From assembly GCF_008704495.1 (NCBI RefSeq), contig NZ_CP023699.1, forward strand, positions 1,054,001 through 1,118,000: a stretch of DNA of 64,000 nt, in the 5' to 3' direction. Each line of letters begins with the position of its first letter. The stretch's first letter is position 1. The notes beneath the pieces are model-generated. The model was given only the letters and a program-made list of their open reading frames with translations. It had not been told where the DNA came from and made no database searches. This stretch comes from Streptomyces kanamyceticus (GTDB lineage: Bacteria > Actinomycetota > Actinomycetes > Streptomycetales > Streptomycetaceae). Shown in pieces: positions 35,877 through 53,738 of the stretch. Both the position numbers and the translations under genes were made by a program.

Positions 35877-37726
35877 GACGTCCTCCTGCCGCGGAGCCGG
35901 CGCAGGGCCATCCGCGCCTTGCGTACCTTCGTGTCGGCGATGTCCAGGACGGTGCCCAGCGTGGTCATCGTGACGAGCATCGGACCGGAGCCCGCCATCA
36001 GCACCGGCCGGTGCTCGTTGCCCGTCACCTTCATGAACTCCGGCTCCTTGATGGCCGGCAGGGTCAGGTCCGCGCGGGAGAGCTTGTGTACGTACGGCAG
36101 CCGCCAGATGCCGGGAAGGGCCGCGTGGGCACGCAGGCCGGCCTTGGTCGGCGGGAGCTTGACGTCGTTCTCCAGGCGCCACAGGGCCCGGCTTTCCAGG
36201 CTCCGGTGCCATTTTTCGACCAGGCCCGCCACGCGGTGCGGGTCGAGGTGGTGCCAGGGGGCGGACTGGGACAGGAACAGCCGGCGCTCCAGTCCGGCCC
36301 GCAGCTGGGCGTGCTCGACCGTCTCCTCGTCGGTGCGGCCGCCTGTCTCGGTCAGCCACCGCGAGACCCGGAAGCGGCCCAGGAGGGCGGCGCCGAAGAT
36401 CATGTAGTCCAGGAGGTGGTCGAGGATGAAGAAGCGGCTGTCGGCGATGGCCGGCCCGTACTTCGACTGGACCATCGAGCGCATGATCCGCCAGTCCGCG
36501 GTGACGGCACGGTTCACGTGGTCCAGGTAGTCGAGGTCGAGGTGGTTTTGGCGGACGTCACGCTGGGCGATGTTGGCGATGTGCCAGGAGGTGGACATCG
36601 ACAGGCTGATGCCCTGGCTGTAGAAGGCGTCGATGATCGAGGAGGCGTCGCCGGCCATGGCGTAGCGCTTGGGCGAGATGAAGGTGTCGGTCATGCGCTG
36701 GACGTCGCGGTAGGCGCTGAACTCCAGGACGTTGTCCTCGGTCAGCCAGTCCAGCAGGGGGTAGCGGCGCAGGATCTTCCAGAAGACGTCCCGGGCGTTG
36801 CCTTCCTCGGGCGGGCGGCCCTGGCTGTAGGTCACGCCGACGCTGATGCGGTCGCCGTTGAGACGGATCAGCCAGATCCAGTAGCCGTCCCCCCAGAGGT
36901 GGAGGGTGTTGCGGTCCCGGTGCGCCTCTCCCCCGTCGGGGAAGGAGAAGTTCCAGCGCTCGTCGAAGGTCTCGTCCGAGCAGTGGGAGAACTGCGCCCA
37001 GGCGGCGGTGGTGGCGAAGCCGTCGTCGAGGCGCAGTTCGTGGTCGAACCGTTTGGCGAGCACCCGGGTGCGGCCGGTGCAGTCGACCATCCAGCGGGCG
37101 GATATCTCCCCGCTCTCTTTCTTGTTGCGTGAACTCCAGCGCAGGGTGTGGTCGTTGTCGCCATCGCCCAGGTCGATGTCGCGGACCAGGCCGCTGTCGA
37201 GGAAGGTCAGCCCTTCGAAGTCCTTGGCCCGTTCCCGGAGCACGGCTTCGATCTCCGGGCGGACGATCTGCGAGTCCTTGAACATGGTGCGGTGGAAGAG
37301 CGGGTTCTCGATCTTCTCGATCCAGTGCGGAGGAAGATCGCTTTCGAATCCCCATTCGGAGACCGAATCGTCGAAGCTGGTGCGGCCTTCGAGGCCGTGG
37401 GCCATCCAGAAGCCCTCTTTCCCGAAGGACTGCTCCAGCGGCTCATCGAGTTCGCCGATGGCGCGCAGGAAGGCGTTGGAGTACACGAGCAGGGACTCAC
37501 CGACCTTGTAGCTGGCGAGTTGCTTCTCGGTCGGCTGGTCAATGATGACAACGCTCAGGCCCCGTTTGGCCAGCGCGATGGCGTTGATCAGGCCGACCAC
37601 GCCGAAGCCCATGACGCAGACGTCGGCGCGTATCCGGTTCGGGCTCGTGGCCGCACCGTCGTCCGGGGCCGGGGGCCCGGTCTTCTCGGCCTTGGCCGCT
37701 GCCGCTGTCGATTTCGGTTCAGGCAC
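35873..37726 (-). CDS. FAD-dependent monooxygenase/halogenase-like protein
   Basis: A 617-residue flavoprotein. The FAD fold starts at residues 34-60 (VCVMGFGVVGLINAIALAKR), with the ASYKVGESLLVYS segment. YWIWLIRLNGDRISVGVTYS corresponds to the WxWxIP motif of flavin halogenases but lacks its proline. The DASSIIDAFYSQGISLSMST segment is the usual second FAD motif. It belongs to the tryptophan-halogenase-like superfamily, and whether it halogenates or only oxygenates is open. GTG start with AAGGAG upstream. It sits between SRPBCC and desaturase genes. Confidence 0.82.
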   Translation of the reverse strand: MPEPKSTAAAAKAEKTGPPAPDDGAATSPNRIRADVCVMGFGVVGLINAIALAKRGLSVVIIDQPTEKQLASYKVGESLLVYSNAFLRAIGELDEPLEQSFGKEGFWMAHGLEGRTSFDDSVSEWGFESDLPPHWIEKIENPLFHRTMFKDSQIVRPEIEAVLRERAKDFEGLTFLDSGLVRDIDLGDGDNDHTLRWSSRNKKESGEISARWMVDCTGRTRVLAKRFDHELRLDDGFATTAAWAQFSHCSDETFDERWNFSFPDGGEAHRDRNTLHLWGDGYWIWLIRLNGDRISVGVTYSQGRPPEEGNARDVFWKILRRYPLLDWLTEDNVLEFSAYRDVQRMTDTFISPKRYAMAGDASSIIDAFYSQGISLSMSTSWHIANIAQRDVRQNHLDLDYLDHVNRAVTADWRIMRSMVQSKYGPAIADSRFFILDHLLDYMIFGAALLGRFRVSRWLTETGGRTDEETVEHAQLRAGLERRLFLSQSAPWHHLDPHRVAGLVEKWHRSLESRALWRLENDVKLPPTKAGLRAHAALPGIWRLPYVHKLSRADLTLPAIKEPEFMKVTGNEHRPVLMAGSGPMLVTMTTLGTVLDIADTKVRKARMALRRLRGRRTS

Positions 37727-37735
37727 CGGTTCTCC

Positions 37736-38335
37736 TTAGTCGGCGGGGCGGGGGGCGAGGCGGGCGAAGCGCCGGGCGACCCGGCGGTGGCGGTGCGCGA
37801 AGAGCTGCTCGACCGTCCGGCGGTACAGGGGGGTGATCGGACGCAGATGGGGCTTGAGGAGGTAGGTGAGCTGGTCGGTGAGTACGGCTCCGCCCGGCCG
37901 GTCGTCGACGGTTCGTTCGTGGATCCAGGCGTGGGCGGAGGACATCCTGGACACCTCCAGGAACCGGTGTCCCTCCTCCCGTTCGGCGATGGTCACGTCG
38001 TCGTAGTCGTAGGGGAGAATCCGGCCGAGCAGGATCCAGGAGCGCCCCAGCGGTTCAGCCAGCGGCACATCGGCGAGGGAGGGGCGGTCGCCGCGCATGG
38101 CGCGGGGGACGGTCATCCGCATCACGGGGGCCAGTTCGGCGTTGATTCCGTCCAGGCGGGTGGCGGCCTCCCACACCTGGAGCCGATCGGCTCCCGGGAG
38201 GAAGGTTGATCGGCGGACCCGTTGCCAGAGCTTGGCGTGCTTGCCTTCGAGGTCAGGGAAGTGGGCGAGGACCGAGGGCGGGGGCCGGTGGCCGCTCTGG
38301 GCCGGGGTTGTTTCGCTGCTGATCGTGTCACTCAT
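37736..38335 (-). CDS. SRPBCC-fold protein (putative cyclase or ligand-binding)
   Basis: A 199-residue protein with the helix-grip pattern of the SRPBCC superfamily (PLGRSWILLGRILPYDYDDV, RFLEVSRMSSAHAWIHERTV, VLTDQLTYLLKPHLRP). Members include polyketide cyclases and lipid carriers. The start at 38335 has GGGAGA upstream and overlaps the aminotransferase-reductase stop by 8 bp. In this cluster it may bind or cyclise the amine product. That role is inferred from position only. Confidence 0.7.
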   Translation of the reverse strand: MSDTISSETTPAQSGHRPPPSVLAHFPDLEGKHAKLWQRVRRSTFLPGADRLQVWEAATRLDGINAELAPVMRMTVPRAMRGDRPSLADVPLAEPLGRSWILLGRILPYDYDDVTIAEREEGHRFLEVSRMSSAHAWIHERTVDDRPGGAVLTDQLTYLLKPHLRPITPLYRRTVEQLFAHRHRRVARRFARLAPRPAD

Positions 38336-41015
38336 GGCCAAGGTCTCCCGTCGGCTGGTCGGCGTGCTCATCCGGCAGGTGGAGCCGGTATCCCAGGCGC
38401 TGGGCCTCGTCACGCAGCAGGCGTACGAGCTCGACGGAGAGCTTCTCGCCGTGACTGACGACCGGGTCGTGCAGCCGGTGCGCGAGGATCATGGTCTCCG
38501 CGGTGCAGGCGTAGGTGACGCCGCTGGGCACGCCGAAGTCCACGCCGAGGTCCTGGCGGCCGGGCATCTCCACGAGTCCGCCTGCGACGACGTTGAGATC
38601 GGGGCGGGCCTCTTTCAGCTGCGGGCCCACGTTGGGCGGCTGCGACACATCGCAGACGGCGGCGCCCCGCCGGACGAGTTCGGGCTTGATGAGCTGGTCG
38701 GGTGTGGAGGTCGCGGCGAGGATGAGGTCACCGCCGGGCAGCACCGCCTCGGACTCCAGCGACCAGGTGAGCAGGCCCTCCTCGGCCAGTTCGGCGGCGA
38801 TGCGGGCGTGGTCCGCGCCCTGGGCCGCCCGGTTGCCGACAGCCCGCGCCAGAGAGCCGGCGGCGGGGGTTGCGCCGACCTCGGCCAGGTGTGTGACGAC
38901 CGCCTCCGCGGCAGCGGTCAGGCGCTCCTGGCTGCGGCGCCGGTTGGCCGGATTGCCCACCAGGACCAGGCTGCCGACCTTCTCGGCCAGCAGCAGGCTG
39001 GAGGCCAGGCCGATCGCGCCGGCTCCGCCCAGAACCACGCAGCAGGCCGCGTCGAGGCGGATGCCCTGCTGGAGGGCGGCTTGCTCCAGTCCGTCCACCG
39101 CTGCGGCGACGGTGTACGCGTTGCCGGTGGTCACGGGGACCTTGACGTCTTGGAGAGCCGTGGCGTTGGCGGTGACGACGGAGGTGTAGGCGCCGAGCCC
39201 GACGAGTTGGGCGCCGCGCGCCACGGCGTCGTCCACGGCCTCCTGGACCAGCGCTGTGGCCTTGGCCGTGGGCATGTCCAGCAGGCGCTGCGCTCCGTAG
39301 GGCAGGGCGTAGATCTCGCCGTAGGAGCTCTCGCCGGTGTCGGTCCGCACGCGGCACCTGCCCACCAGCATGGCCGCGGCCGTGTCGACGTTGCGGCACT
39401 GGTTCATCCGGTCGAACAGGACGCGTACCTGTTCTCCGGGCAGGCCGAGGCGGCTGTCGTAGCTCTCGTAGCTGGCCATGTCGGTGGGGTGGGCGATGAA
39501 CGCCCAGCGCGGTTCCCCCGTGCGGGGCCGCAGTGGTTGGTCAGGCGCCGCGGGACGCGCTGGCAGTTGGGCAACCGCCTGCTCCCGCGCTTCGTCCGCG
39601 TCCCGCGGGCCTGTCTTGGGGAGCAGGTGGGCGAAGAAGCGCCGGCTGTCACCCTGCTCGATGACGCCGAGCCCTCGGTCGAGGGCGGCCAACAGCGTGT
39701 CGCATTCCTCCTCGGTGACGGTCAGCGGCGGCTCCACGCGCAGCACGCTGTTGGCGAAATAGGCGGGGGCCAGGCGGATCCCTTCGTTGCGCAGCAGGTA
39801 GCCGCAGAGGAATCCGGCCAGGCCTTCCTGGTCGGCGAGGGAGCGGAAGAGGCCCTGGCTGGTGTGGATGTCGGGGTCGTCGGACAGTTGCACGCCCAGA
39901 AGGAGGCCTTGGCCGCGCACGTCGGCGACGAGGTCGGGATGCTTGGCCGCGAGCTGCCGGAGGCCGTCCAACAGGTAGGTGCCGCGCCCGGCGACCTGGC
40001 GTACGAGAGCCTGGTCGTCAGCGGTCAGCAGCTCCACGGCGCGTACGCCGACGCGGGAGCAGAAGGCGTTGCCCCCGAAGGTCGAGGTGTGGCGCAGGCC
40101 GAAGTCCTCGGTGAGTGAGTCCTCGCCGAACAGCACGGCGCCGATGGGGACCATCCCGCCCCCCAGGGCCTTCGCCAGGGGCATGATGTCGGGCACCACG
40201 CCGGAGTGTTCGCAGGCGAACAGGCGTCCCGTGCGGCCAAGGCCCGTCTGGACTTCGTCGATGATGAGTTTGGCGCCGAAGCGGGTGCACAGCTCCCGTG
40301 CTGTGGCGAGGTATCCGTCCGGCGCGGGGACGATGCCGCCCTCGCCCTGCAGGGCCTCGACGATGAACGCCGCTGTCTGCTCGCCGTGTTCGTCAAAGGC
40401 CTGTTTCAAGGCGTCGGCGTCGCCGAAGGGGAGGTGCATGAATCCGGGAGAGGGAGCACCGAACGGCGTCTGGTAGCGCGGACGGCCTGTGGCGGACAGC
40501 GCGCCCAGTGTCTTGCCGTGGAAGGAGTTGCGTGTGGAGATCACCAGGGTGCGGCCGGTGGCCGCCCTGGCAAGCTTCAGCGAGGCTTCGACCGCCTCGG
40601 CCCCGCTGTTGCACTGCCAGACCTGGTTGAGGTGGCCCGGGGCGGCCTGGGCCAGACGCTCGGCGAGCAGGGCTGAGGCATCGAGGAGGGAGGGCAGCGT
40701 CAGGCTCGGCTCGGCCGACTGCTGGAGGTCGCTGATGGCCTCCCAGATCTCGGGGGGGTTGTGGCCGAAAGGCAGGGCACCGTAGGCACCGGCGAAGTCG
40801 AGGTAGGAGTTGCCGTCGGCGTCGTAGAGCCGCGTGCCGGCACCGCGCACGTAGTGGATGTCCATGCCCAGCCCGTCGAGCATGCGGGCGACGTAGGGGT
40901 TGGAGTGCCTGCGATAGCGTTCCGCGGTCTCGCCGCGGTCGGCGACGCCACTCAGTCGGGCGCGAAGCGCGGCCCTCTTCTCTTCGGCCGTGCTGGTCAA
41001 AGGCGTGGAAGCCAC
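38328..41015 (-). CDS. class III aminotransferase fused to acyl-ACP reductase-like domain
   Basis: An 895-residue fusion. Residues about 30-455 are a class III PLP aminotransferase with IIDEVQTGLGRTGR (Asp253) and the PLP lysine at LAKALGGG (Lys282). Residues about 503-870 resemble cyanobacterial acyl-ACP reductase (AAR): WAFIAHPTDMASYES, GAYTSVVTANATA, a nucleotide loop GGAGAIG (663-669), and YACTAETMILAH with Cys837 matching the AAR catalytic cysteine. Such a protein could reduce an ACP-bound chain to an aldehyde and transaminate it to an amine, as proposed for TamH of tambjamine synthesis. It starts with GTG 8 bp after the PKS stop; the start is uncertain because the ribosome site is weak. 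Confidence 0.85.
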   Translation of the reverse strand: MASTPLTSTAEEKRAALRARLSGVADRGETAERYRRHSNPYVARMLDGLGMDIHYVRGAGTRLYDADGNSYLDFAGAYGALPFGHNPPEIWEAISDLQQSAEPSLTLPSLLDASALLAERLAQAAPGHLNQVWQCNSGAEAVEASLKLARAATGRTLVISTRNSFHGKTLGALSATGRPRYQTPFGAPSPGFMHLPFGDADALKQAFDEHGEQTAAFIVEALQGEGGIVPAPDGYLATARELCTRFGAKLIIDEVQTGLGRTGRLFACEHSGVVPDIMPLAKALGGGMVPIGAVLFGEDSLTEDFGLRHTSTFGGNAFCSRVGVRAVELLTADDQALVRQVAGRGTYLLDGLRQLAAKHPDLVADVRGQGLLLGVQLSDDPDIHTSQGLFRSLADQEGLAGFLCGYLLRNEGIRLAPAYFANSVLRVEPPLTVTEEECDTLLAALDRGLGVIEQGDSRRFFAHLLPKTGPRDADEAREQAVAQLPARPAAPDQPLRPRTGEPRWAFIAHPTDMASYESYDSRLGLPGEQVRVLFDRMNQCRNVDTAAAMLVGRCRVRTDTGESSYGEIYALPYGAQRLLDMPTAKATALVQEAVDDAVARGAQLVGLGAYTSVVTANATALQDVKVPVTTGNAYTVAAAVDGLEQAALQQGIRLDAACCVVLGGAGAIGLASSLLLAEKVGSLVLVGNPANRRRSQERLTAAAEAVVTHLAEVGATPAAGSLARAVGNRAAQGADHARIAAELAEEGLLTWSLESEAVLPGGDLILAATSTPDQLIKPELVRRGAAVCDVSQPPNVGPQLKEARPDLNVVAGGLVEMPGRQDLGVDFGVPSGVTYACTAETMILAHRLHDPVVSHGEKLSVELVRLLRDEAQRLGYRLHLPDEHADQPTGDLGHE

Positions 41016-41022
41016 GTTGGGG

Positions 41023-44000
41023 TCACCGTCCGTCTTCGGAGTCGAGTGCCGCGAGGAGTCGATCGAGTTCTTCCTCGGACAGGTCATCGAGGTTTTCGAG
41101 GGCACGGCGGGCTTCCTCTGAGGTCGGCCCGCGCTGGTTTCCGGCTGCTGTGAGGGTGCGGGCGATGTCCCGCAGCGTCGCGCCCTCCATGAGCACGGTG
41201 ATCGGGATGGGCGTCCCGAGGTCGTTCTCCAACCGGTTCTTCAGCTCGACGATGGACACGGAGTCGATGTCCAGGTCTCTGGCCGAACGGTCCGGGTCCA
41301 GGGCTTCGGCGTCGGCCTGCATGAAGTCGGCCAAGTGCGTGATGAGCCGCCCGAGCACGGCGCTCTCGTCCAGGCCGGGCCCCGCCGGAGCGGCTGCGGC
41401 GCCGGTCGGGGCGGCTGTCGTGTCGGTGGCGGGGTCCGCGTGCGTGACCCAGTGCTTCTTGCGCTGCCAGGGGTAGGTCGGCAGCGTGACCATGCGGGCC
41501 GGCCCCGGGTGCAGCGCGGCCCAGTCCACCGCACACCCGGCGGACCACAGCTGGCCGACGGCTGCCCGCAACCCGAGCCGTTCGTCCTCGTTCTTGCGCA
41601 GCGTGGCTACGGCGGCGCCCTTCACCCCGCTCTGGTCGAGGGCCCTTTGCAGATGGGGCAGCAGCGCCGGGTGCGGTCCCAGCTCGACGAAGGCGCTGAC
41701 CCCGTCCGCGAGCATGGCGTCCACGGCGTTGCCGAACAGGACCGGGCGGGCGGCGTTGTCCGCCCAGTGCCCGGCCCGCAGATGTTCCCCGGGCAGGAGC
41801 GAACCGGTGACCGAGGAGTACACAGGGGTGCGCGAGGCTGCCGGTTGCAGATCCTTCAGATCTGTCAGGAGTTGTTCCGCGACGGGGCCGAGCCCGGGGC
41901 TGTGGAAGGCGTAGTCGGTGGCCAGGCGGGTGACGCGCCAATGGGAGAGGTGCTCGCGCAGTGCCTCCATCTCCTTGGCCGGGCCGGAGATAACCGTTCC
42001 CTGGGGGCTGTTGACGGCGGCGATGCCGACGCCCGTTCCCGGCGCGGACGGCGAGGACTGCGCCTTGGCCAGCGCCGCGGCGACCTCGGCAGCGGGTGCT
42101 CGGACGGCCAACATCGCGCCTCCGGCGGCGTGCTGGTGCAGGGCCTCGCCCCGGGCGAGCAGCACCTGCACGGCCTGCTCGCGGGAGAGGGCTCCGGCGG
42201 CGACGGCTGCGGAGACCTCGCCGACGCTGTGTCCGCACACGGCGACCGGGATCAGGCCCCAGTCGCGCAGGCGCTCGGTGAGGGCCGCCTGGAGTGCGGC
42301 GATGGCGAGTTGCGCGAATCGGGTATCGGCCAGGGCCCGTTCGGATTCCGGGCCGGCCAGCGTCGCAAGGAGCGGGGGCCCGCCGGCCTGCCGGACGGCC
42401 TCGTCCCACGCGGTCAGCTCCTCGCGGATGAGGGAGTCGTGTCCGGCGAGGGAGATGCCCATGCGTGGCCATTGCGCCGACTGCCCGGAGTAGACGAATG
42501 CCAGATTCTGCCGCGCGGCGGGGGAAGCGGCGAGGACGGCCGGGCTGTTCGCCGCACGCCTCAACGCGTCGGGAAGCAGCTCGGGGCGGGCCGCGCAGAC
42601 AGCCGCGCGCCGTGGATGGGGCCCCCGGCGCCGGGCCGCCGCTGTGGCGGCCTGCTGGATCTGCGGGGCGTCCATGCCCTCCAGATGCGCGGCGAATTGC
42701 TCCAGCTGTGCCGCGAGGGCGGGTCCGGTTCGCGCGGAGAGGGGGATCAGAGCGGGGGCGTCCGGGCCCGGGTCCTGAGACCTTTCCGGGCGGTTGGCGT
42801 ACTCGCGCACCGCGGGCACGGCGTCGGGGTGGCCGATGATCAGATGCGCGTTGGTGCCGCCGAAGCCGAAGGAACTGACGGCCGCGTAACGGGCTTCCGT
42901 GGAGGTCCACGGTTCCAGACGCCGCGGGACCGCGAAACGCTCGCCCTCCAGATCGATGAACGGGCTGATCTCGCCCAGGTTGATCTGCTGCGGTATGCGA
43001 CCGTGGCGGAGCGCGCCGACGGCCTTGATCAGTGAGGCGACCCCGGCCGCGGACTCCAGGTGACCGAGGTTGGCCTTGACCGAACCCAGCCAGCAAGTAG
43101 GTGCCTGATCGCCGCCCGTTCCGTACACGGCGCGGATCGCCTCGTACTCGATCGGGTCCCCCAGGGGCGTTCCGGTGCCGTGCATCTCGACGAACGTGAT
43201 GTCCTGAGCGCTTTTCCCGGAAGCGTGCAGGGTGCGGCGCATCAGCGCCTCCTGGGCCAGCGCGGAGGGCGCGGTCAGGCCGTTGGTCCTGCCGTCCTGG
43301 TTGGTTGCGTCCGCGAGGATGACGGCTTCGATCGGATCTCCGTCGGCGAGCGCGTCCGAGAGGCGCTTGAGTGCCACGAGTCCGGCGCCCTCACCGCGGA
43401 CCATGCCGTCCGCGTCGGCGGCCAGCGCCTTGGTGCGGCCGTCCGGGGCCAGCGGCAGCGCACGACCGGTCATGGTGGTGGACAGCGGGGACAGGATGAG
43501 GTTGACGCCTCCGGCCAGGGCCCGGTCGCAGTCGCCCGCCCGCAGGCTCTGGCAGGCGAGATGGACGGCGACCAGCGAGGAGGAGCAGGCCGTGTCGACC
43601 GTCATGCTGGGGCCCTGGAACCCGTACTGGAAACTCAGGCGGTTGGCGAGCAGGCTCCGTGCGCCGCTGCCCGTGGAGAGCCGACTGCTGACATCGGGCC
43701 GGGCCGCGAGCGAGGCGAGCATGTAGTCCTGGTGGCCGGCGCCGATGAACACCCCCGTCGGCGTCCGTTCGAGTTCGTCGGGTGTCCAGCCTGCTCGTTC
43801 GGTGGCTTCCCAGGCGATCTCCAGCAGGATGCGCTGCTGTGGGTCCATCAGGTCGGCTTCGGTGTCGCTGATGGCGAAGAACTCGCCGTCGAAGCCGTCG
43901 ACTTCGTCGATCTGCCCGGCGTGCTGGGCGAGCCGGGCGAAGGCGGGATCGTCCAGTGCGCCGAAGTCGATGCCGCGCCAGCGGTCGCCGGTGAGCGGAC

Positions 44001-44205
44001 GCACCGCGTCACGGCCCGAGGCCACCAACTCCCAGTACGCTTCGGGGCTGTTGGCCCCGCCGGGCAGGCGGCAGGTGGCGGCGACGATGGCGATGGGCTC
44101 GGCCGCGCGGCCCTGCTGTTCTTGCAGTTCGGTGATGCGCCCTCGCAAGGAGCGGATGGTTTCGGCGGCGCGGAGCAGTGTCTGGTCGGTCGGATCGCTG
44201 GTCAT
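41023..44205 (-). CDS. modular type I PKS, KS-AT-ACP
   Basis: A 1060-residue single module. KS (about 36-460) has [25 protein letters not shown] and LGHLESAAG, giving the Cys-His-His triad. AT (about 570-860) has CGHSVGE and a YAFHS specificity segment, nearer the malonyl type. ACP (about 945-1020) has the phosphopantetheine serine in [16 protein letters not shown]. The C-terminus carries an acidic docking helix ([16 protein letters not shown]). There is no ketoreductase, dehydratase or thioesterase, so the beta-keto group must be handled in trans or kept. ATG with AAGGGGAGCC upstream. It follows the other PKS gene by 9 bp. Confidence 0.92.
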
Positions 44206-44214
44206 GGCTCCCCT

Positions 44215-47200
44215 TCAGGACGTGCTGTCGAGCTCGGCCAGCAGCTGGTTGAGCGCATCGGAGGCGTTGTCCGCGGACGGCTGGGGCTGCGCGCCGCGCG
44301 TCGGCCGGCCGCTGCCGGACGCTGTTGAAGGGGCATCGCGGCGTTCGAGCACGTCGGCGAGTTCTGCCGAGAGTTGGCTGATCGTGGGGTGGGACCACAC
44401 GAGTGCGACGGACAGGCGCACTCCCAGTTCCCTTTCGAGCCGGTTGCGCAGTTCTACGCCCATCAGGGATTCGAGTCCCAGCTCCGCGAAGAGCAACTGG
44501 TCGGGGTCGGCAGCAGGCAATCCGCCGGGCAGGATGCTGCCGAGCGCGGCGCGCAGCCATGCGGTGAGTCGGGTGCGGCGCTCTTCTGTGCTGGTGGCCT
44601 GGTCCAACAGGTCCCGCAGGGGGGACGGGGCGGACGAGGCGCTCTCCCCGGACGTCTGGGCCTGGCTCGGTGCGCTGCCCGACGGGCCGGGGAGTTCTGA
44701 CAGGTGTTGCAGCGCTACGCCTTGTATCTGGGCCAGCAGCTCTCCGGCGCTGTCCACCAGGGCCAGGTCGATGCTGATCTGGTCGTCTGCCTCATGGAGC
44801 CAGCCGTAGGCGGTGCCGCGGTCCGCGGACCACAGGCGCGGGGTGAGGTAGGCGGAGCCGATACGGGCAACGGTGAACTCGTCAAGCCGGGGAAGGTTGT
44901 CGTAAGCGTCGAACAATGCATCGGCCAGGCCGGGCAGCGCGGGGTCCAGGAGGCTGGGGCCTTGCGCGGGGCGGCCGGTGAGCAGCTGTGCGGGCACGGT
45001 CACCTCGACTTGGGCCATCGCTGATCGGATGGGGAAGGGCTCGGGTGCCGTGCCGACCCCGACGGTGCAGGTGGCGCCAGCGGTCCACCGGCCGGATTCC
45101 CGGAAGAGGAACGACACCAGCGCGGAGGACGGGTGGGCGTGGCCGCCGCCGCGCAGCAGGGCGAGTTGGAGGGGGACCGCGGCGTCGGCCGGGAGCCGTC
45201 GGCGCAGGTCCACGTCGCGTATCCGGCACCCTTCGCCGAGACCTGCCTGGTCCGCTGCCCAGGAGGCCAGTGCGACCAGCTCCGCGGCCGAGAGGGCGGG
45301 CCGACCGGCTACATGGTGTTCCTCGCGGGCGGCGGGCAGGGTCAGTTCGGCGATGAAGGTCCCCGGCTGCAGCGCCACCTCGGTCAGGTCTCCGGGGACG
45401 GTCCTGGCGGCGGGCACACTCTGAGGGGGCTTGTGGGCCTGGTGCCGCTGAAAGGGATGTCCCGGCAACCGGGGTGCCCAGTGGCGGGTGATGTCGTCGG
45501 CCACCGCATCGGGGCGCCGGCCGTGTTCGTACAACGCGGCGGCCACGTCGTGCAGGCCGTGGGGCACGGGCCGGTCCCGGTAGGCCGTGGCGAGTGCGGT
45601 GACGGGCCGGCTGCGGCCCTCGACGCTTTCGCCCAGCGCGGCGAGCAGGACCGGGTGCGGGCTGATTTCCAGGAGGTGGGTCATGCCGTGGTCGGCCATG
45701 GCGTTGATGGCTTCCCGTGCCCGGACCGGGCTGGTCAGGTTCTCTTTCCAGTAGGCGGTGTCCAAAGGGCCGTCGAAGCGTCCGCCCTGGACGGACGAGT
45801 AGAAGTCGATTGCTTCGGCGCGATTCTGTGCGGGTTGCTCGACGTGTCCCAGTGCGTCGACGAGTCGTTGTGCGGGCCCGCGCATCAGGGGGCCGTGCGA
45901 GGGATAGTCGACCTTGACCAGCCGGGCGTCGCGGCCCCGGCGCTCGAACTCCGTCATGGCGTCGGCCAGGTCGGCGGCTGCTCCCGAGAGCACGCAGGTG
46001 CGGGGGCTGTTGTCGGCGGCGACGGTGACCGGGCTGCCTGCGTCCCGCAGGATGGTCCTGGCCTCGTCGGCGCCCGCCTCGACCACTGCCATGCCGCCGC
46101 GGCCCCGTGCGGCCTCCACCGCGTCGTTGCGGGCCCGCAGGACCCGGCAGGCCGTGGTCAGGTCGAGCCTTTGGCCGGCGACGGCCGCGCTCACCTCACC
46201 CATGCTGTGGCCGACCACCGCGTCGGGTCGGATTCCCAGCTCGGCGAGGCCGGCGGTGAGTGCCAGCTGAACGGTCATGATCAGTGGCTGGGCAACGGAG
46301 ATGTCGTCGAGGTCGGCGTTCCGCTCGCCCCGCAGTGCCCGCAGCGGGCTCCATCCCAGCAGGGGCGCGAACACCGTGTCGATCTCCTCGACGCGTCGTG
46401 CGAACGCCGCGCTGGTGCGCAGGAGTTCCCTGCCCATGCCGTTCCACTGCGAGCCGTGCCCCGAGTACACGAAGCCCAGGCGTGCGACGGGAACCGGAGC
46501 GGTCGGTGAGATCGGCCGGCTCCGCGTCGCCACTTTGTCCAGTTGCCCGAGGAGTTCTTCTCGGTCGGCTGCGACCAGCCCGGCGCGCCACGCGAAGTGG
46601 GTCCGGTGCACTGCCGCGGCACGGGCGGCGTCTTGGATCTCAGCCCAGGTGTCGGCTGTCCGTACGTGTTCGGCCCACGAGCCCGCCAGGGCGGCCAGCG
46701 CGTCTTCATTGCGCGCCGACAGCGGCAACAGGGCGGGCCCGAAGGCCGCCCGCACACCTCGCCGTACGGGGGAACGGTTTGGCGTGCGGGCGATGATGGC
46801 GGAGGCGTTGGTGCCTCCGAAGCCGAACGAGCTCACGGCCGCGCAGTGAGCCTGGTCCGGCCAGGGAAGGTCCGTTGAGGGGACTCGCAGGCGGAAGGCG
46901 TCGAGGTCGATGCGGGGGTTGACATGGGTGAAGTGCGGATTGCGCGGGATGACTCCCCGGCTGAGGACGAGTGCGGCTTTGATCAGACCGAGGATCCCTG
47001 CGGCCGCCTCCAGGTGCCCGATGTTCGCCTTGATCGAGCCGACGGCCAGCGGTGGCCGGTCCTCGCCGAGCGTGTCGGCCAGGGCTGTGGCCAGGGCGCG
47101 CGCCTCGATGGGGTCCCCCAGCGGGGTTCCCGTTCCGTGCAGTTCCACGAATCCGAGCTGTTCGGCGCCGGTGATGCCCGCGCGCCGCAGGGCACCGGCG

Positions 47201-48081
47201 ATCAGCTCGGTCTGGGCGCGTCCGCTCGGGGCGGTCAGGCCGTTGGTGCGGCCGTCCTGGTTGACGGCGGTCGCACGGAGGACGGCGTGGATGTGGTCTC
47301 CGTCTGCGAGCGCGTCGTCCAAGCGTCGCAGGACGACGGCCCCGGCGCCCTCGGATCGTACGTATCCCTTGCCTGCCGCGTCGAAGGTGCGGCAGCGGCC
47401 GTCGGGCGCAAGGGCGGTCAGAGCGGCCGCGCCCAGTTGCGGCACCGGCGACAGCAGTGCGTTCACTCCCCCGGCCAGCGCCAGGTCGCACTCGCCGGTC
47501 AGCAGGCTCTGGGCGGCCAGGTGCACGGCGACGAGCGAGGAGGAACAAGCGGTGTCCACGGCCAGCGAGGGGCCTCGCAGGTCCCACAGGTAGGACAGGC
47601 GGTTCGCAGTGATCGAGTGGGCGAGGCCGGGGTTCGTGAACGGTCCGGCTGCGGCTGCCTGCGGCTGGGCGCCCAGGAGCATGGCGTGATCGTGTGTGGC
47701 CTGCCCGAAGAAGACTCCGGTGCGGCTTCCCGCCAGCTCGTCGGGGACCACGCCCGCGTTCTCCAGGGCGCGCCAGGAGACTTCGAGGGCGAGTGCCTGC
47801 TGCGGGTCCATCGCGGCCGCCTCGGCCGGGGAGATCCCGAAGAACGCCGGGTCCCATCGGCCGATGTCCTCGAGGAATCCGCCCCACTGGGCGCCGGCGC
47901 CGTGCTCGCCGACCGCCCGCAGGGCGGCGGTGAACTGTGTGCGGTCCTCGGGCACCCGGATGATCTCGTCGCGTCCCTCGAGCAGTAACTGCCAGAGGGC
48001 CGTCGGGCTGTCCGCGCCGGGAACCCGGCAGCCGAGCCCGACGACGGCGATGTGGGCGGCTTCGGGCGCCGTGTCAGACAC
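44215..48081 (-). CDS. modular type I PKS, KS-AT-DH(degenerate)-ACP
   Basis: A 1288-residue module. KS has [25 protein letters not shown] and IGHLEAAAG, so it is active-looking. AT has GHSMGE, with YPSHGPLM where HAFH/YASH is normal, so its substrate is unclear. A double-hotdog dehydratase-like region follows. Its first motif is HHVAGRPALS, where Ser replaces the usual Pro, and the second is DPALPG, where Pro replaces Gln/His, so dehydration may be impaired. ACP has LGLESLMGVELRNRLE. No ketoreductase. The GTG start at 48081 has GGAGGAGG upstream and overlaps the ACP gene by 8 bp. Confidence 0.9.
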   Translation of the reverse strand: MSDTAPEAAHIAVVGLGCRVPGADSPTALWQLLLEGRDEIIRVPEDRTQFTAALRAVGEHGAGAQWGGFLEDIGRWDPAFFGISPAEAAAMDPQQALALEVSWRALENAGVVPDELAGSRTGVFFGQATHDHAMLLGAQPQAAAAGPFTNPGLAHSITANRLSYLWDLRGPSLAVDTACSSSLVAVHLAAQSLLTGECDLALAGGVNALLSPVPQLGAAALTALAPDGRCRTFDAAGKGYVRSEGAGAVVLRRLDDALADGDHIHAVLRATAVNQDGRTNGLTAPSGRAQTELIAGALRRAGITGAEQLGFVELHGTGTPLGDPIEARALATALADTLGEDRPPLAVGSIKANIGHLEAAAGILGLIKAALVLSRGVIPRNPHFTHVNPRIDLDAFRLRVPSTDLPWPDQAHCAAVSSFGFGGTNASAIIARTPNRSPVRRGVRAAFGPALLPLSARNEDALAALAGSWAEHVRTADTWAEIQDAARAAAVHRTHFAWRAGLVAADREELLGQLDKVATRSRPISPTAPVPVARLGFVYSGHGSQWNGMGRELLRTSAAFARRVEEIDTVFAPLLGWSPLRALRGERNADLDDISVAQPLIMTVQLALTAGLAELGIRPDAVVGHSMGEVSAAVAGQRLDLTTACRVLRARNDAVEAARGRGGMAVVEAGADEARTILRDAGSPVTVAADNSPRTCVLSGAAADLADAMTEFERRGRDARLVKVDYPSHGPLMRGPAQRLVDALGHVEQPAQNRAEAIDFYSSVQGGRFDGPLDTAYWKENLTSPVRAREAINAMADHGMTHLLEISPHPVLLAALGESVEGRSRPVTALATAYRDRPVPHGLHDVAAALYEHGRRPDAVADDITRHWAPRLPGHPFQRHQAHKPPQSVPAARTVPGDLTEVALQPGTFIAELTLPAAREEHHVAGRPALSAAELVALASWAADQAGLGEGCRIRDVDLRRRLPADAAVPLQLALLRGGGHAHPSSALVSFLFRESGRWTAGATCTVGVGTAPEPFPIRSAMAQVEVTVPAQLLTGRPAQGPSLLDPALPGLADALFDAYDNLPRLDEFTVARIGSAYLTPRLWSADRGTAYGWLHEADDQISIDLALVDSAGELLAQIQGVALQHLSELPGPSGSAPSQAQTSGESASSAPSPLRDLLDQATSTEERRTRLTAWLRAALGSILPGGLPAADPDQLLFAELGLESLMGVELRNRLERELGVRLSVALVWSHPTISQLSAELADVLERRDAPSTASGSGRPTRGAQPQPSADNASDALNQLLAELDSTS

Positions 48082-48358
48082 GGTCCTCCTCCGGCGAGGT
48101 CTTGCGGGCGAGGAACTGCGCGAGGCCGTGGATGGTGGGGTGGTCGAAGAGCCACTCGGGCGGCACCTCGAGTCCCAGCCGCTGGCCGGCCGCACCCGAA
48201 ACGGCCACGACCGCGGCCGAGTCGAGTCCGAGTTCGACGAACGAGGTGTGCCAGTCGAGGCGTTGGCCCGGGGCGAGTTCGAGGTCTGTCGCTATCGCGT
48301 CCTGCAGCATGGCCGCGATGGCGAGCTCGTTCCCGTGCACGGCGGATTCGGTGTTCAT
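48074..48358 (-). CDS. free-standing acyl carrier protein
   Basis: A 94-residue ACP with the phosphopantetheine site at Ser47 (VELGLDSAAVV). It begins in an ATGA overlap with the acyl-AMP ligase stop and overlaps the PKS start, so ligase, ACP and PKS are made together. It is the likely acceptor of the acyl chain activated by the ligase and the donor to the first KS. Confidence 0.9.
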   Translation of the reverse strand: MNTESAVHGNELAIAAMLQDAIATDLELAPGQRLDWHTSFVELGLDSAAVVAVSGAAGQRLGLEVPPEWLFDHPTIHGLAQFLARKTSPEEDRV

Positions 48359-50175
48359 CGCTGTCCTCCCTCAGATATGAGCCCCCGGCGCCACAGGGCG
48401 ACGGGCCTCAGCTCGTCCGCGCTCCACCGCCGGACGGCCTCCTGGCGCCGGACCTTTCCGCTGGTGGTCCGGGGTACGGCTCCGGCGCGCAGCAAGCCGA
48501 CGGCGGCCACCGGGATGCCGTGTTCTTCCAGCACCGAGTTGCGCGCTGCGGCGATGACGGCGTCGTAGTCGACGTGATCGCCGTAGTCGGTCAGTTCGCA
48601 GACCAGCACGACCTGTTCGGTCTGCCCCCTCTCGCCGCCGTCGGCCTGCGGCACGCTCAGCGCCGCCGCGCGCACGGCCAGCGGGTGACTCTCTTCGACG
48701 GTGCCCTCGATGTCGTGGGGGTAGTGGTTGGTGCCCCGGTGGACGATGACGTCCTTGATGCGGCCCACCACGCAGACCTGGTCCTCGTGCCACACACCGA
48801 GATCTCCCGTGCGCAGGTAGGTCCGCTCGCTGTCCTGGTGGACGGCGTGCGCCAACCGGGCGCGGAAGGTGCTGTCCGACTCCGTCGGGCGGCCCCAGTA
48901 GCCGCCCGCCACGCTGGGCCCGTGCACCCATATCTCGCCGACCTCGCCCGGCTGCTTGCGGAGCCGGGTGACCGGGTCGACCATCACGATCTCGGTGTCC
49001 TCGGCGAGGGCGCGGCCGCATCCGACCAGGACGGTGTTGCGCGTTCCTTCGACGGCTGCCGCCCGCTGCTGGGCGCCCAGTGCGTCAGCGGAGACCTCGG
49101 ACAGGGCCGGGGCGGCTTTCCGGCCCAGGCAGCTCACCACCAGGGTGGCCTCGGCGAGACCGTAGGCGGGCATCATGGCGTGCGGGTCGAAGCCGTGGGG
49201 GGCGTAGGCCTTGGCGAACTGTTCGATGGTTCGCGGGCGCACCGGTTCGGCTCCGTTGAGTGCGTGGCGCAGCGCTGAGAGGTCCAGGCCCTCGCGCTGT
49301 TCTTCGGTGATCTTCTGTACGGCCGTGGCGTATCCGAAGTCGGGTGCGATCGTGAAGGTGGCCCGGATGCGGCTGAGGGTCTGCAGCCATCGCAGCGGGT
49401 TGCGCAGGAAGCCTGCGGGAGTCGCCATGTGCAGGCTCATGCCGGCCCACAGCGGGTGGCAGACCATGCCGATGAGTCCCATGTCGTGAAAGAGGGGCAG
49501 CCACCCTGCCGCCGTTTGTCCGGGCCCGGTTCCCAGGTTGGCGCTCATGCGGGTCACGTTGTGCACGAGGTTGGCGTGCGAGACCATCACGCCCTTCGGG
49601 TTCGACGTCGAGCCCGAGGTGTACTGCAGCAGTGCGAGGTGCTCCGGCCTCGGCTGGGGGCCGCGGAAGCCTGTCAGCCCGCTTGGGGGGTTGTCGGCTG
49701 CCTGCGGGTCCAGAACCAGGGGGTCCAGGCCCGCTGCCCGGCTCACCTCGCGGAGCCTTGGGTGCAGGTCCGGTTGCGCGATGATCGCCGAGGGTTCGCA
49801 GTCCCGGAGGATCTGTTCGAGCCGGTGGTCGTAGGCCCGGCCGGCCCGTGCCGTCGACAGCGTCGGCGGGTGGAAGGTGACAGCCACGGCATCGGCGAAC
49901 GCGCAGGCGAAGAAGGAGGCCACGTAGTCCAGGCCGTTGGGCAGGGCGATCAGGACGAAGGGCCGGTGGTGTGTCCGCGACGGGAGGCCGTTCAGCACCG
50001 CCCCCAGAGCGGCGGCGCGTCCGCACAACTGCCCGTATGTCAGAGCCTGTTCGCCGTGTCGCGGTGTCGTGTAGGAAATGGCCGCAGTGTCGCCGCGCGT
50101 CTCGGCGTGCGCCGCCAGGGCATGGGCCAGGGTCTGGCGGTCAGACACGGGCGGCCGGTGTGTGGCGGGTGGCAT
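48355..50175 (-). CDS. fatty acyl-AMP ligase (FAAL-like)
   Basis: A 606-residue ANL-superfamily enzyme. It has the adenylation P-loop LQYTSGSTSNPKGVM, AYGLAEATLVV and the TGDLGVWHEDQVCVVGRIKD hinge. The FDP-like and inserted loops fit the FAAL group, which loads fatty acids onto ACPs. It would activate a fatty acid as AMP ester and load the adjacent ACP. ATG at 50175 is chosen for its GAGGGGAGG site, though it overlaps the preceding SDR gene by 35 bp. A GTG at 50148 would shorten the overlap. Confidence 0.9.
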   Translation of the reverse strand: MPPATHRPPVSDRQTLAHALAAHAETRGDTAAISYTTPRHGEQALTYGQLCGRAAALGAVLNGLPSRTHHRPFVLIALPNGLDYVASFFACAFADAVAVTFHPPTLSTARAGRAYDHRLEQILRDCEPSAIIAQPDLHPRLREVSRAAGLDPLVLDPQAADNPPSGLTGFRGPQPRPEHLALLQYTSGSTSNPKGVMVSHANLVHNVTRMSANLGTGPGQTAAGWLPLFHDMGLIGMVCHPLWAGMSLHMATPAGFLRNPLRWLQTLSRIRATFTIAPDFGYATAVQKITEEQREGLDLSALRHALNGAEPVRPRTIEQFAKAYAPHGFDPHAMMPAYGLAEATLVVSCLGRKAAPALSEVSADALGAQQRAAAVEGTRNTVLVGCGRALAEDTEIVMVDPVTRLRKQPGEVGEIWVHGPSVAGGYWGRPTESDSTFRARLAHAVHQDSERTYLRTGDLGVWHEDQVCVVGRIKDVIVHRGTNHYPHDIEGTVEESHPLAVRAAALSVPQADGGERGQTEQVVLVCELTDYGDHVDYDAVIAAARNSVLEEHGIPVAAVGLLRAGAVPRTTSGKVRRQEAVRRWSADELRPVALWRRGLISEGGQR

Positions 50176-51214
50176 CGGGCCTCCCCTCGTCCCCGAGGGC
50201 GTCGATCATTCCGTCCACAGCCATCTCCGTGAGCCAGCGGTCGACCGCTGCGATGGAGTCGTCCAGGGGCGTGGGACGGAAGCCGAGTTCACGCTGCGCT
50301 CGGCTCGTGTCGTAGAAGAGCTGGTTGACGGTGAGTTGTGCGTTCTCGGGGACGAGGAAGGGGGATTTGAGGGGATCCTTACGGAAGGCGGCGACCATCG
50401 CGCCGAGCCGGCCGGCCACCGTGACGGCGAAGTCGGGGATCGCGCGCTTGGGCGGCGGGCATCCGATGACGCGGGCCACCTGCGTGAACAGTTCGCGATA
50501 GGTGAGGTTGACCGAGGAGATGATGTAGCGGCGTCCGGGCTGTCCCCGCAGCATGGCTGCCCGCAGGCCCTGGTTCATGTCCTTGACGGAGGTGAACGCG
50601 GCCCCTCCCAGCGGGTAGGCCGTCAGTTTCCCCTGGCGTGCGGCCTCCACCAGCATCGCCCAGCCGTAGCGCCGGTCGCTGTAGGGAGCGATGCACGCGC
50701 TGAGGTTGACGATCACCACTTCGGGGCCGCCGGCCCGCCAGCCGCGGAGCAGTTCGCGCTCCCCGGCCCGTTTCGTGATCATGTAGCTGTTGGTGCAGGC
50801 GGAACGGGAGATGTCGAAGTCCTCGTCGGCGAGTTCACCGATGGCCGGGTAGCCGATCGCGGAGATGGAGGAGGCGTGCACGATGCGGCGCACCCCGGTT
50901 GCGCGTGCCGCGTTGATGAGGTTGGCGCAGCCCCGCACGTTGACCTGTTCCATGAGGGGGTGCAGCTTGTTGAGGGTCACGGCGATGCCGGCGAAGTGGT
51001 ACACCTCGTCGATGCCTTGCAGCGCTTCCTCGAGTGACGCGGGGTCGGTGACGTCGCCGCGCCGGACCTGGCAACGGTGCAGGTGGTGTTCCAAGCCGCC
51101 GGGGCCGTCGCCCGGCTTGAGGAGAACGACGACGTCTGCTCCATCGTCGATGAGGTGGCGCGCGAAGGCGGAGCCAAGGCTCCCGGACGCGCCAGTGATC
51201 ATCACTCGGGTCAC
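50141..51214 (-). CDS. NAD-dependent epimerase/dehydratase-like SDR (CerR-type candidate)
   Basis: A 357-residue extended SDR. Rossmann start MITGASGSLGSAFARHL, active-site Ser in HASSISAIG, and the catalytic Tyr/Lys in NSYMITKRAGE. It resembles the epimerase-like 3-oxo-ceramide reductases and dihydroflavonol reductases. The two PKS modules have no KR, so it could reduce a beta-keto intermediate or an oxo-amide in trans. GTG start in a 4-bp overlap with the acyltransferase stop. Confidence 0.8.
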   Translation of the reverse strand: MTRVMITGASGSLGSAFARHLIDDGADVVVLLKPGDGPGGLEHHLHRCQVRRGDVTDPASLEEALQGIDEVYHFAGIAVTLNKLHPLMEQVNVRGCANLINAARATGVRRIVHASSISAIGYPAIGELADEDFDISRSACTNSYMITKRAGERELLRGWRAGGPEVVIVNLSACIAPYSDRRYGWAMLVEAARQGKLTAYPLGGAAFTSVKDMNQGLRAAMLRGQPGRRYIISSVNLTYRELFTQVARVIGCPPPKRAIPDFAVTVAGRLGAMVAAFRKDPLKSPFLVPENAQLTVNQLFYDTSRAQRELGFRPTPLDDSIAAVDRWLTEMAVDGMIDALGDEGRPDATRHTPAARV

Positions 51215-52341
51215 AGGACCAGGTCCTTTCCGTAGACGGCATAGGTGCGGACGGGGTCGTTACCGGTCTGCGCCATGTAGGAGCGGCTCTGCCAGTTGTG
51301 TTCGTGGATCCAGGTGGTGTGCACGTCGCGGTAGGAGCCGATCTGCCCCAGGGCGACCTTGGCGATCTCGCCGACCAGGACGCGCCCGATTCCGAGGCCC
51401 TCGTGTTCGGGCCGTACGCCGATCATCAGTACGACGGTTCCCCGGATGTTGGCCTTGAGCTCCGGGTAGCGCTCCATGAAGGCGTCGGTGGCTTCACCGT
51501 TGGCGACTTTCAGCAGCTCGTTGCCGTCGGCGGCCAGCATGCTGAAGGCGATGGTCTGCCCCTGGTACTCCACGAAGCGGGTGAGCCGGGGGTCAAGGAG
51601 CTCGCGCAGCTCGCCGAGTTGGAAGCGCAGCACCGGCTTGCTGATGGCGACCATGTCGTGGTTGTCGGCGAACGAGGCGGCCAGCAACTCCTGGACGAGG
51701 TCGATCTCGCTCTCCCAGTGTTCGGGGTCCAGATCGCGGATGCTGAGACCGAGCCGCTCGGACACCTTCTCTCCGCGACGCGCGAGTCTCGCCATGGCAT
51801 CAGCGTCGTGGTCGGCCCGCCAGCTGAAGGTGTCGGTGCGGAAGTCGCGCTGGTAGCCGGCCTGGGAGAGGAGTTCGGCATAGTGCGGGGGGTTGTGCGG
51901 CTGGAACACCGTCGGCTGGTTGTCGAACCCGCCCACGAGAAGACCGAACTCCTGCGTGGCGCAGTAGGAGTAGGGGCCTGCGACGCGCTCCATGCCGCGG
52001 CTGCCCAGCCACTCTTCAGCGGCGGTCAGCAGCGCTGAGGCGACCTGGGGGTCATCGACGGTCTCGAACCAGCCGAAGAAGCCGGTCTTGCCGAAGCGTT
52101 CCACGTAGGCGGGGTCGATCGTCGTGGAGATGCGCCCCACGGCCCGGCCGCTCGAGTCGAGGGCCAGGAAGTGCTCGATCTCCGCCTCGGAGAAGTACGG
52201 GTTGGCCTCAGGGTCCATGAATCGTCGCACGTCGGAAGAGAGCGGCGGGATCCATCTGTCATCTTCCTCGTAAAGGTCCGCCGCGAAGGAAATGAAGCGG
52301 TCCACCATCTGGCGACCGCGCACAGGAATTACTGACAGCAC
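51211..52341 (-). CDS. long GNAT-superfamily N-acyltransferase (bacterial ceramide synthase-like candidate)
   Basis: A 376-residue GNAT-like protein. The N-terminal half has VDRFISFAADLYEEDDRWIP and FMDPEANPYFSEAEIEHFLA. The C-terminal half has the acetyl-CoA-type loop VRPEHEGLGIGRVLV. Its size and N-terminal pattern recall the long acyltransferases of bacterial ceramide synthesis rather than small acetyltransferases. It is the first gene of the leftward operon. GTG start with GGGAGGGAGA upstream. I infer N-acylation of the amine made by the operon; an acetyl or other acyl donor is equally possible. Confidence 0.65.
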   Translation of the reverse strand: MLSVIPVRGRQMVDRFISFAADLYEEDDRWIPPLSSDVRRFMDPEANPYFSEAEIEHFLALDSSGRAVGRISTTIDPAYVERFGKTGFFGWFETVDDPQVASALLTAAEEWLGSRGMERVAGPYSYCATQEFGLLVGGFDNQPTVFQPHNPPHYAELLSQAGYQRDFRTDTFSWRADHDADAMARLARRGEKVSERLGLSIRDLDPEHWESEIDLVQELLAASFADNHDMVAISKPVLRFQLGELRELLDPRLTRFVEYQGQTIAFSMLAADGNELLKVANGEATDAFMERYPELKANIRGTVVLMIGVRPEHEGLGIGRVLVGEIAKVALGQIGSYRDVHTTWIHEHNWQSRSYMAQTGNDPVRTYAVYGKDLVL

Positions 52342-52724: not shown

Positions 52725-53738
52725 GTGAAGAAGTCCGCCATACTCTGCGGAATAGGCGCATGGTTGCCCCCGAAGGTGGTGACCAATGACGACCTGTCCG
52801 AGCAGCTGGAAACAAGCGACGAGTGGATCCGCACCAGAACAGGAATCCGGCAGCGCCACATCGTCGATCCGGGCATGTCAACGGGAGACCTCGCAGTCGA
52901 GGCCGGCAGGCGCGCCCTGAAGTCGGCGGGCGGTGAGCCGGTGGATCTGGTGATCCTCGCAACGGCCACGCCCGACCATCCCTGTCCTGCCACAGCACCC
53001 GCCGTGGCGCACAGGCTGGGCCTCATCGATGTCGCAGCCTGGGACCTGTCGGCCGTCTGCAGCGGATTCCTCTACGGGCTGGCCGCTGCCAGGGGATTCA
53101 TCGCGGCCGGTACGGCCAACCGCGTTCTGCTCATCGGCGCCGACACCTTCTCGACCATCCTGGCTCCCGGCGACCGCACCACCCGCCCGATCTTCGGCGA
53201 CGGCGCCGGAGCCGTCGTGTTGCGTGCTGGAGAGCCCGACGAGCTCGGCGCGCTGGGGCCCTCCTCCCTGGGCAGTGACGGCTCCCTGCGTGAACTGATC
53301 ACCGTCCCGGCAGGTGGTTCGCGTTTCCCGGTCAACCCCCAGAAGCACTCGCACCCAGACCCTGGGCGCTACTTCACCATGCAGGGCAAGACCGTATTTC
53401 GACATGCGGTGGCCCGGATGGCAGGAGCCGCGACGGAGGTACGTCGTCAGGCCGGCTGGTCCGCATCTGACGTGGACTGCTTCGTCGCGCATCAGGCCAA
53501 CTACCGCATCCTGCAGGCCGTGGTGGAAAAGCTCGGCATCCCCATGGAACGGTGCGCCGTCAACCTCGCGCACGTCGGCAACACCGCTGCCGCTTCCATT
53601 CCGCTGGCGCTCGCCGACGCCGCAGCGAGCGGACTGCTCAGACCAGGACACCGTGCGCTGCTGGCCGCTTTCGGCGGCGGCGCCACCTGGGGTGCTGCCG
53701 CCTTGACATGGCCGGATCTCACCCCGGAACGAACCTGA
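52725..53738 (+). CDS. 3-oxoacyl-ACP synthase III (KAS III / FabH-like)
   Basis: A 337-residue KAS III with the Cys112-His256-Asn286 triad (DLSAVCSGFLYGL, VAHQANYRIL, HVGNTAAAS). It condenses a short acyl-CoA starter with malonyl-ACP. GTG start with GGAAGGAAGGGA upstream. It heads the rightward operon, so it probably starts a dedicated fatty or polyketide chain rather than housekeeping synthesis. Confidence 0.93.
   Translation: MKKSAILCGIGAWLPPKVVTNDDLSEQLETSDEWIRTRTGIRQRHIVDPGMSTGDLAVEAGRRALKSAGGEPVDLVILATATPDHPCPATAPAVAHRLGLIDVAAWDLSAVCSGFLYGLAAARGFIAAGTANRVLLIGADTFSTILAPGDRTTRPIFGDGAGAVVLRAGEPDELGALGPSSLGSDGSLRELITVPAGGSRFPVNPQKHSHPDPGRYFTMQGKTVFRHAVARMAGAATEVRRQAGWSASDVDCFVAHQANYRILQAVVEKLGIPMERCAVNLAHVGNTAAASIPLALADAAASGLLRPGHRALLAAFGGGATWGAAALTWPDLTPERT

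Follow-up and report, generated by a model that had tools for sequence, protein, structure and literature searches.

The minus-strand gene cluster described here, from Streptomyces kanamyceticus, probably makes a ceramide-like fatty amide, a predicted product, by a route in which serine is not the starting compound. It lies in a stretch of 64,000 nucleotides (contig NZ_CP023699.1, positions 1,054,001 to 1,118,000), hereafter the window, whose own numbering is used below. A tandem-GNAT N-acyltransferase of the bCerS/YghO family is encoded there in the same run as a polyketide synthase (PKS) and a class III transaminase fused to a reductase of acyl groups carried by acyl carrier protein (ACP). 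This transaminase/acyl-ACP reductase fusion is abbreviated TA-AAR. Serine palmitoyltransferase (SPT) is taken as the gateway to sphingolipids. We assign a probability of about 0.58 to the reading in which an SPT-free route at this locus yields an N-acylated, ceramide-like long-chain amine. If this is true, the half of the ceramide pathway that performs N-acylation and desaturation has been recombined with a different source of the amine, and a new class of ceramide mimics is predicted in Streptomyces.

Organization and conservation of the cluster

An earlier note on this DNA had placed the locus at 38328..52341 and listed seven genes in transcription order, nearly all overlapping. All seven open reading frames were found at these coordinates, on the minus strand and with the domains described. 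Neighbouring frames overlap by 4, 35, 4, 8, and 65 or 83 bases, and the two PKS genes are separated by 9 bases. The extent had to be revised, since the run continues past 38328 to 33358 with four more genes (START-like, flavoprotein, P450 and a desaturase absent from the earlier description), again with overlaps or gaps of at most 9 bases. These overlaps and short gaps suggest that the run from 52341 to 33358 is one putative operon. In the list below, KS, AT, DH and KR denote ketosynthase, acyltransferase, dehydratase and ketoreductase domains.

51211..52341, minus: tandem-GNAT N-acyltransferase, bCerS/YghO family, 376 aa (homology; AlphaFold2 model)
50141..51214, minus: extended short-chain dehydrogenase/reductase (SDR), epimerase-like, putative 3-keto reductase, 357 aa (domains; Gly-rich loop and YxxxK kept)
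48355..50175, minus: fatty acyl-AMP ligase (FAAL; domain match)
48074..48358, minus: stand-alone ACP (PF00550, E 2.2e-15)
44215..48081, minus: PKS1, KS-AT-DH(degenerate)-ACP without KR (domain match; the open frame reaches 48195)
41023..44205, minus: PKS2, terminal module KS-AT-ACP without reductive domain (domain match)
38328..41105, minus: TA-AAR of the TamH/KecF type (start 41105 or 41087)
37736..38335, minus: START/Bet v 1-like (SRPBCC fold) protein, 199 aa (predicted fold; no Pfam match)
35873..37726, minus: FAD-dependent halogenase/monooxygenase-like flavoprotein (weak similarity to halogenases)
34746..35876, minus: membrane fatty acid desaturase (PF00487, E 4.1e-23)
33358..34749, minus: cytochrome P450 (domain match)

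The C-terminal part of the 38328..41105 product matches the cyanobacterial acyl-ACP reductase (6jzq, 6jzu) and PigE (4ppm). As in TamH and KecF, an N-terminal class III transaminase is followed by an acyl-ACP reductase with its catalytic residues; the pyridoxal phosphate Lys, the nucleotide loop (GxxGxxG) and the Cys are kept in 12/12 aligned TA-AAR sequences. TamH turns acyl-ACP into an amine with L-glutamate as preferred donor (PMC9594044). The earlier proposal of a PKS plus reductive amination as the amine source thus has an assayed precedent for its amination step. Fusions of this kind, including Streptomyces homologues, have been published (PMC9594044, PMC6498172, PMC10829540).

A scan of genome contigs with the TA-AAR protein gave 10 loci, five of which come from close Streptomyces relatives (L002-L006). 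In other Streptomyces the same gene set is found in the same order with 46-83% identity per gene, which is more than chance would give. Two layouts are seen among L002-L006 and the genus neighbour genome G091. The two-module type comprises the window, L002, G091 and probably L006 (flavoprotein and exporters present; the contig ends inside the last module). The one-module type comprises L003 (S. viridiviolaceus), L004 (S. niveus) and probably L005 (the contig ends inside the PKS). More distant clusters lie in G159, of the same genus, and in G374, from another family of the class; they retain the GNAT, SDR, PKS, TA-AAR, desaturase, P450, FAAL and MMPL genes at 33-60% identity. When gene order was compared across actinobacteria, as the earlier note had proposed, the GNAT, the SDR, a KR-free terminal module, the TA-AAR, the desaturase and the P450 occurred together in 6/6 clusters with a neighbourhood available (window, G091, L003, L004, G159 and G374); in L002 the SDR is present and the sequence stops short of the GNAT, and L005 and L006 are uninformative. 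Five more distant TA-AAR loci (L007, L008, L017, L018 and L019) have no GNAT in the stretch available, so the fusion alone does not bring a GNAT. Three others (L009-L011) match the transaminase part only and were left out of this comparison. With the own genome counted, the TA-AAR is present in 1/61 relatives, 3/199 genus genomes and 3/296 class genomes; all three class genomes also carry the GNAT and the SDR.

Other arrangements of related domains were met. The proteins P0193, P0220 and P0241 are single chains of 1540-1588 aa with Pfam domains of an AMP-ligase, an ACP and a class III transaminase, and these chains match more than 90% of the TA-AAR; they are possible one-protein converters of fatty acid into fatty amine. 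On a Methylocystis plasmid (L019, 3011-22445), a TA-AAR-like protein is accompanied by a class I/II transaminase, an ACP, an AMP-ligase, a PKS and a nitroreductase.

Families of the GNAT, the SDR and the desaturase

The window GNAT aligns with E. coli YghO at 28.2% identity over 387 columns (147 bits, E 2.6e-45), with both GNAT halves covered. The assignment to the bCerS family made in the earlier note is therefore borne out: the homology to YghO is full-length, and the GNAT does not match only acetyltransferases of another known pathway. The gene yghO (ECD_02850) is the E. coli counterpart of Caulobacter CC_1154, an N-acyltransferase required for dihydroceramide (PMC9386255), and in the E. 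coli locus examined (L025) spt, ACP, epimerase, FAAL and yghO are clustered. An alignment of 18 GNAT-family sequences shows 18 invariant columns. With phmmer, 153 relatives were detected among 7,997 candidates scored; with tblastn, 44 of 72,556 plasmid records matched, 41 of them at no less than 80% coverage, and the annotation yghO appears on one of the 30 plasmid matches listed. The family is present in 6/197 class genomes and 23/198 phylum genomes (own genome counted). The NCBIfam scan of the GNAT and a direct PDB search with its sequence gave no match.

The neighbourhoods of this family often contain an SPT-like gene. Thirteen of the 23 further GNAT places in the phylum (Actinomycetota) were examined with wide flanks; an SPT-like gene lies beside or near the GNAT in eight of them, adjoining it in seven (L065, L067, L068, L070, L071, L073 and L074) and about 3 kb away in L072. 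It was also found in the same stretch in four of the five plasmid loci opened (L012, L013, L014 within the wider L086, and L016). Of these enzymes, that of L016 scores above its NCBIfam SPT cut-off (613 vs 500); that of L012 falls short of its own (377 vs 640) though its best family is SPT, a pattern shared by L067 and L070. The other SPT-like neighbours were called by tblastn to SPT alone. In a tree of 28 sequences, the six PKS-linked GNATs stand on one side and 11 SPT-linked GNATs on the other (branch support 90/87), and 11 rows fall in no group, including L013 and L014, which both come from sphingolipid loci. By this tree the window GNAT is a distinct branch of the bCerS family and not an SPT-linked bCerS. 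As an observation in its own right, a linear plasmid of Streptomyces sp. NBC_01001 (L012, 6766-11292) encodes an SPT-like enzyme, a bCerS-family GNAT, an epimerase and a condensation domain in one run, and is a candidate Streptomyces ceramide-like cluster that does carry an SPT-like gene.

The S. kanamyceticus genome contains two matches to the SPT query at E≤1e-5. The first is Kbl, glycine C-acetyltransferase (657 bits against its cut-off of 460), the second is BioF-like (389 against the BioF cut-off of 426), and neither reaches an SPT cut-off. An SPT encoded elsewhere in the genome was thus rejected, in agreement with the absence of SPT from the locus reported in the earlier note. A PKS-paired alpha-oxoamine synthase of SPT activity was not among the genes scanned in 28530-56695.

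The SDR could not be equated with CerR, as had been suggested. It keeps the Gly-rich loop and YxxxK, which are SDR motifs. Its best NCBIfam match is HpnA, below the cut-off (185 vs 368 bits). Its identity to six CerR-type SDRs from SPT-like loci is 20-28%, no nearer than to an own-genome paralogue (29%; two other paralogues, 22% and 23%). The PKS-linked SDRs form one clade (98/98). The enzyme may nevertheless perform CerR's reaction.

The desaturase has no paralogue in the own genome at E≤1e-5. Relatives occur in 2/198 phylum genomes (E≤1e-25), both carrying this cluster, and in 3 of 72,556 plasmid records, two of which place it within SPT/bCerS loci of canonical type. In the sphingolipid locus of a Sphingomonas parapaucimobilis plasmid, the related desaturase sits between lptFG and the GNAT. 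In Diaphorobacter pDCB2 it is found with an spt gene, an ACP, an FAAL, a GNAT and lptFG, and the spt product is 60% identical to E. coli SPT over the part available. The window enzyme contains the His boxes HEIAH, HGEHH and HALHH. Its subfamily is rare and was otherwise encountered in two sphingolipid loci, which lends support to the ceramide-like reading. The Diaphorobacter plasmid is a conjugative IncP plasmid on which the sphingolipid locus (L086, 1-19041: spt-like gene, ACP, FAAL, bCerS-family GNAT, lptFG and desaturase) is accompanied by mercury resistance genes.

Predicted route and competing explanations

The earlier description of the PKS as ketoreductase-free is confirmed, as no KR family matches either window PKS at E≤1e-3. 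The dehydratase region of PKS1 gives a weak Pfam match only (9.2e-5); the DH His and Asp are kept in 3/3 aligned sequences (window, L002 and G091), the rest of the motif being altered. The terminal module is KR-free in all six clusters compared. It is KS-AT-ACP by full Pfam scan in the window, L003, L004 and G159; in G374 the first 880 residues scanned contain KS-AT and the module, at about 1030 residues, is too short to include a KR, and in L002 and G091 it was judged by length. The upstream module is variable: G374 has KS-AT-DH-KR-ACP (GHSxG was not found in its AT by pattern search), the window, L002 and G091 have KS-AT-DH(degenerate)-ACP, G159 retains a KS but no recognisable second AT, and L003 and L004 lack the module. 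From this domain content, a 3-oxo group next to the released C1 would be common to the clusters, and the comparison argues for an N-acyl 1-amino-3-oxo/hydroxy lipid.

The following route can be proposed. The FAAL would adenylate a fatty acid, perhaps shaped by the divergent FabH-ACP-FabF set listed below, for loading on the ACP. Chain extension by one or two KS-AT modules would follow, the unreduced last module leaving an ACP-bound 3-oxo group. The TA-AAR, whose domains and catalytic residues are observed, would reduce the thioester to the aldehyde and transaminate it as TamH does. The resulting 1-amino-3-oxo chain would correspond to 3-oxo-sphinganine; its amine would lie beta to the ketone, and the nitrogen would be taken from an amino donor rather than from serine. 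The family and context of the next enzymes suggest that the GNAT would N-acylate this amine, that the SDR would reduce the 3-oxo group before or after acylation, and that the desaturase, the P450 and, in some clusters, the flavoprotein would tailor the chain before export by MMPL/MFS transporters. The sphingolipid-like N-acyl amine of the earlier note is thus backed by the GNAT family, the lack of an SPT match and the TamH-type amination, and loses the SDR as CerR. The full version, in which a second, SPT-independent actinobacterial route leads from a PKS 3-oxo chain through the TA-AAR amine and the GNAT, SDR and desaturase to a secreted 1-amino-3-hydroxy 'iso-ceramide', is put forward tentatively, at somewhat less than even odds.

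Several points weigh against a ceramide-like product. Since the PKS-linked GNATs form a separate branch, their substrate may differ from that of the SPT-linked ones. No SPT-like gene was seen in 5/13 of the wide-flank Actinomycetota GNAT loci, in any of the three class GNAT loci in the stretch examined (L034-L036), or in the stretch of the Ensifer plasmid locus L015. The SDR is without special kinship to CerR by sequence. The third plasmid match of the desaturase (S. panacis, L085) lies outside any sphingolipid locus. No head-group gene was seen at the locus, and the presence of exporters points to a metabolite that is secreted, not to a lipid of the membrane. The MMPL gene was not seen in the stretches available for L003 and L004. 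Neither the START-like gene nor FabH was found in G159 and G374, which places both outside the wider core. Finally, clusters of the two-module type could give a C5 ketone that captures the amine in a ring.

This last point leads to an unlikely alternative, a koreenceine-type alkaloid. A starter and two modules would leave a C5 ketone condensing with the C1 amine to a cyclic imine or dihydropyridone (six-membered), and the GNAT would acylate something else or serve self-protection. In the window the number of modules is exactly two and KR is lacking; its TA-AAR is of the KecF type, and reduction, transamination and spontaneous cyclisation have been proposed for the formation of koreenceine (PMC6498172). 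However, the C5 ketone is not a common feature of the clusters because the upstream module varies or is absent: L003 and L004 combine a single module with the other core enzymes and so have no second extension, and the upstream KR and DH of G374 would remove the ketone. This argues against a conserved six-membered ring, and such a ring was rejected as the family product. The GNAT and SDR are retained in these same three clusters (L003, L004 and G374). Koreenceine clusters also use type II KS/chain length factor (CLF) pairs with KecF (PMC6498172), which are absent here, the window PKS being made of type I KS-AT modules.

We consider it quite improbable that the GNAT provides self-resistance, or caps a secreted amine antibiotic, by transferring an acetyl or other small acyl group, its likeness to bCerS being at family level only. 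The AlphaFold2 model (pLDDT 91) has a tandem-GNAT fold, and its best solved-structure matches, which would fit such a role, are tandem GNATs, among them 2wpw of the clavulanic acid pathway and the glucosamine N-acetyltransferase 5kga; no solved bCerS structure is among the 50 best. The separation of the PKS-linked from the SPT-linked GNATs points the same way. Against this, the 50 listed structures are only 8-16% identical to the GNAT, compared with 28% to YghO over the full length, and both the SPT-linked neighbourhood of the family and the linked desaturase subfamily point toward sphingolipids. There is very little likelihood that the long-chain amine is an intermediate to be condensed further, as TamH amines are joined to a bipyrrole in tambjamines (PMC9594044), or chlorinated by the flavoprotein with weak halogenase similarity, the GNAT product being minor or transient: the genes scanned in 28530-56695 include none recognisable as a bipyrrole gene or as another coupling gene, and halogenation was dropped as a core step because the flavoprotein is missing from L003, L004 and L005.

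The ceramide-like reading was compared with three known systems. The canonical bacterial ceramide pathway (Caulobacter CC_1154 and CC_1162-1165; E. coli BL21 yghO locus; PMC9386255, PMC11087976; for Caulobacter also PMC11324152) shares with the window a GNAT N-acyltransferase homologous over its full length, an extended SDR, an acyl-ACP/acyl-AMP ligase and an ACP. In contrast, the window cluster and its genome have no SPT that could be found, with a PKS and a TA-AAR instead; the GNAT is on its separate branch, the SDR has no demonstrable CerR kinship, and no LptFG or head-group genes were seen. The PfSgaAB system of Pseudomonas fluorescens MYb115 makes PKS-derived sphingolipids in which serine is used by an alpha-oxoamine synthase that has SPT activity (PMC12134224). 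There too a PKS supplies the sphingoid-type chain and a separate reductase is proposed for the 3-oxo group, whereas the window has a class III transaminase fused to an acyl-ACP reductase, and the available text describes no bCerS-type GNAT for PfSgaAB. The TamH (tambjamine) and KecF (koreenceine) systems share the TA-AAR domain order and catalytic residues, and the tambjamine system also the adenylation/ACP feeding; unlike them, the window has type I KS-AT modules, a GNAT, an SDR, a desaturase and a P450, with no recognisable bipyrrole genes and no KS/CLF pairs. TA-AAR fusions and PKS-derived sphingolipids have thus been published separately. Our literature search, with subscription journals mostly outside its coverage, found no report joining a bCerS-type GNAT with a PKS and a TA-AAR.

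Flanking genes and other features of the window

The putative operon is flanked by exporter and regulator genes on one side and by a divergent fatty acid synthesis set on the other.

28530..29147, minus: TetR regulator (beside MMPL in L002, L006 and G091 too)
29300..31699, plus: MMPL-family transporter (also in L002, L006, G091, G159 and G374)
31737..33305, plus: MFS transporter (also adjoins the clusters of L002, L006 and G091)
52725..53738, plus: FabH-type ketoacyl-ACP synthase III, divergent from the GNAT (also beside the GNAT in G091, L003 and L004)
53841..54122, plus: second ACP (FabH-ACP-FabF set, divergent from the GNAT)
54119..55348, plus: FabF-type ketoacyl-ACP synthase II (same set, divergent from the GNAT)

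The model of the 199-aa START-like protein has a pLDDT of 81.5, and its listed structure matches have query-normalised TM values of about 0.4-0.6. Elsewhere in the window, an 819-aa protein (24816-27275, plus strand) contains an eCIS_core domain (PF13699, E 2.4e-20), which suggests a link to extracellular contractile injection systems. A 330-aa protein (60856-61848, minus strand) matches a single Pfam family, the Helicase-associated (HA) domain PF03457, in three stretches.
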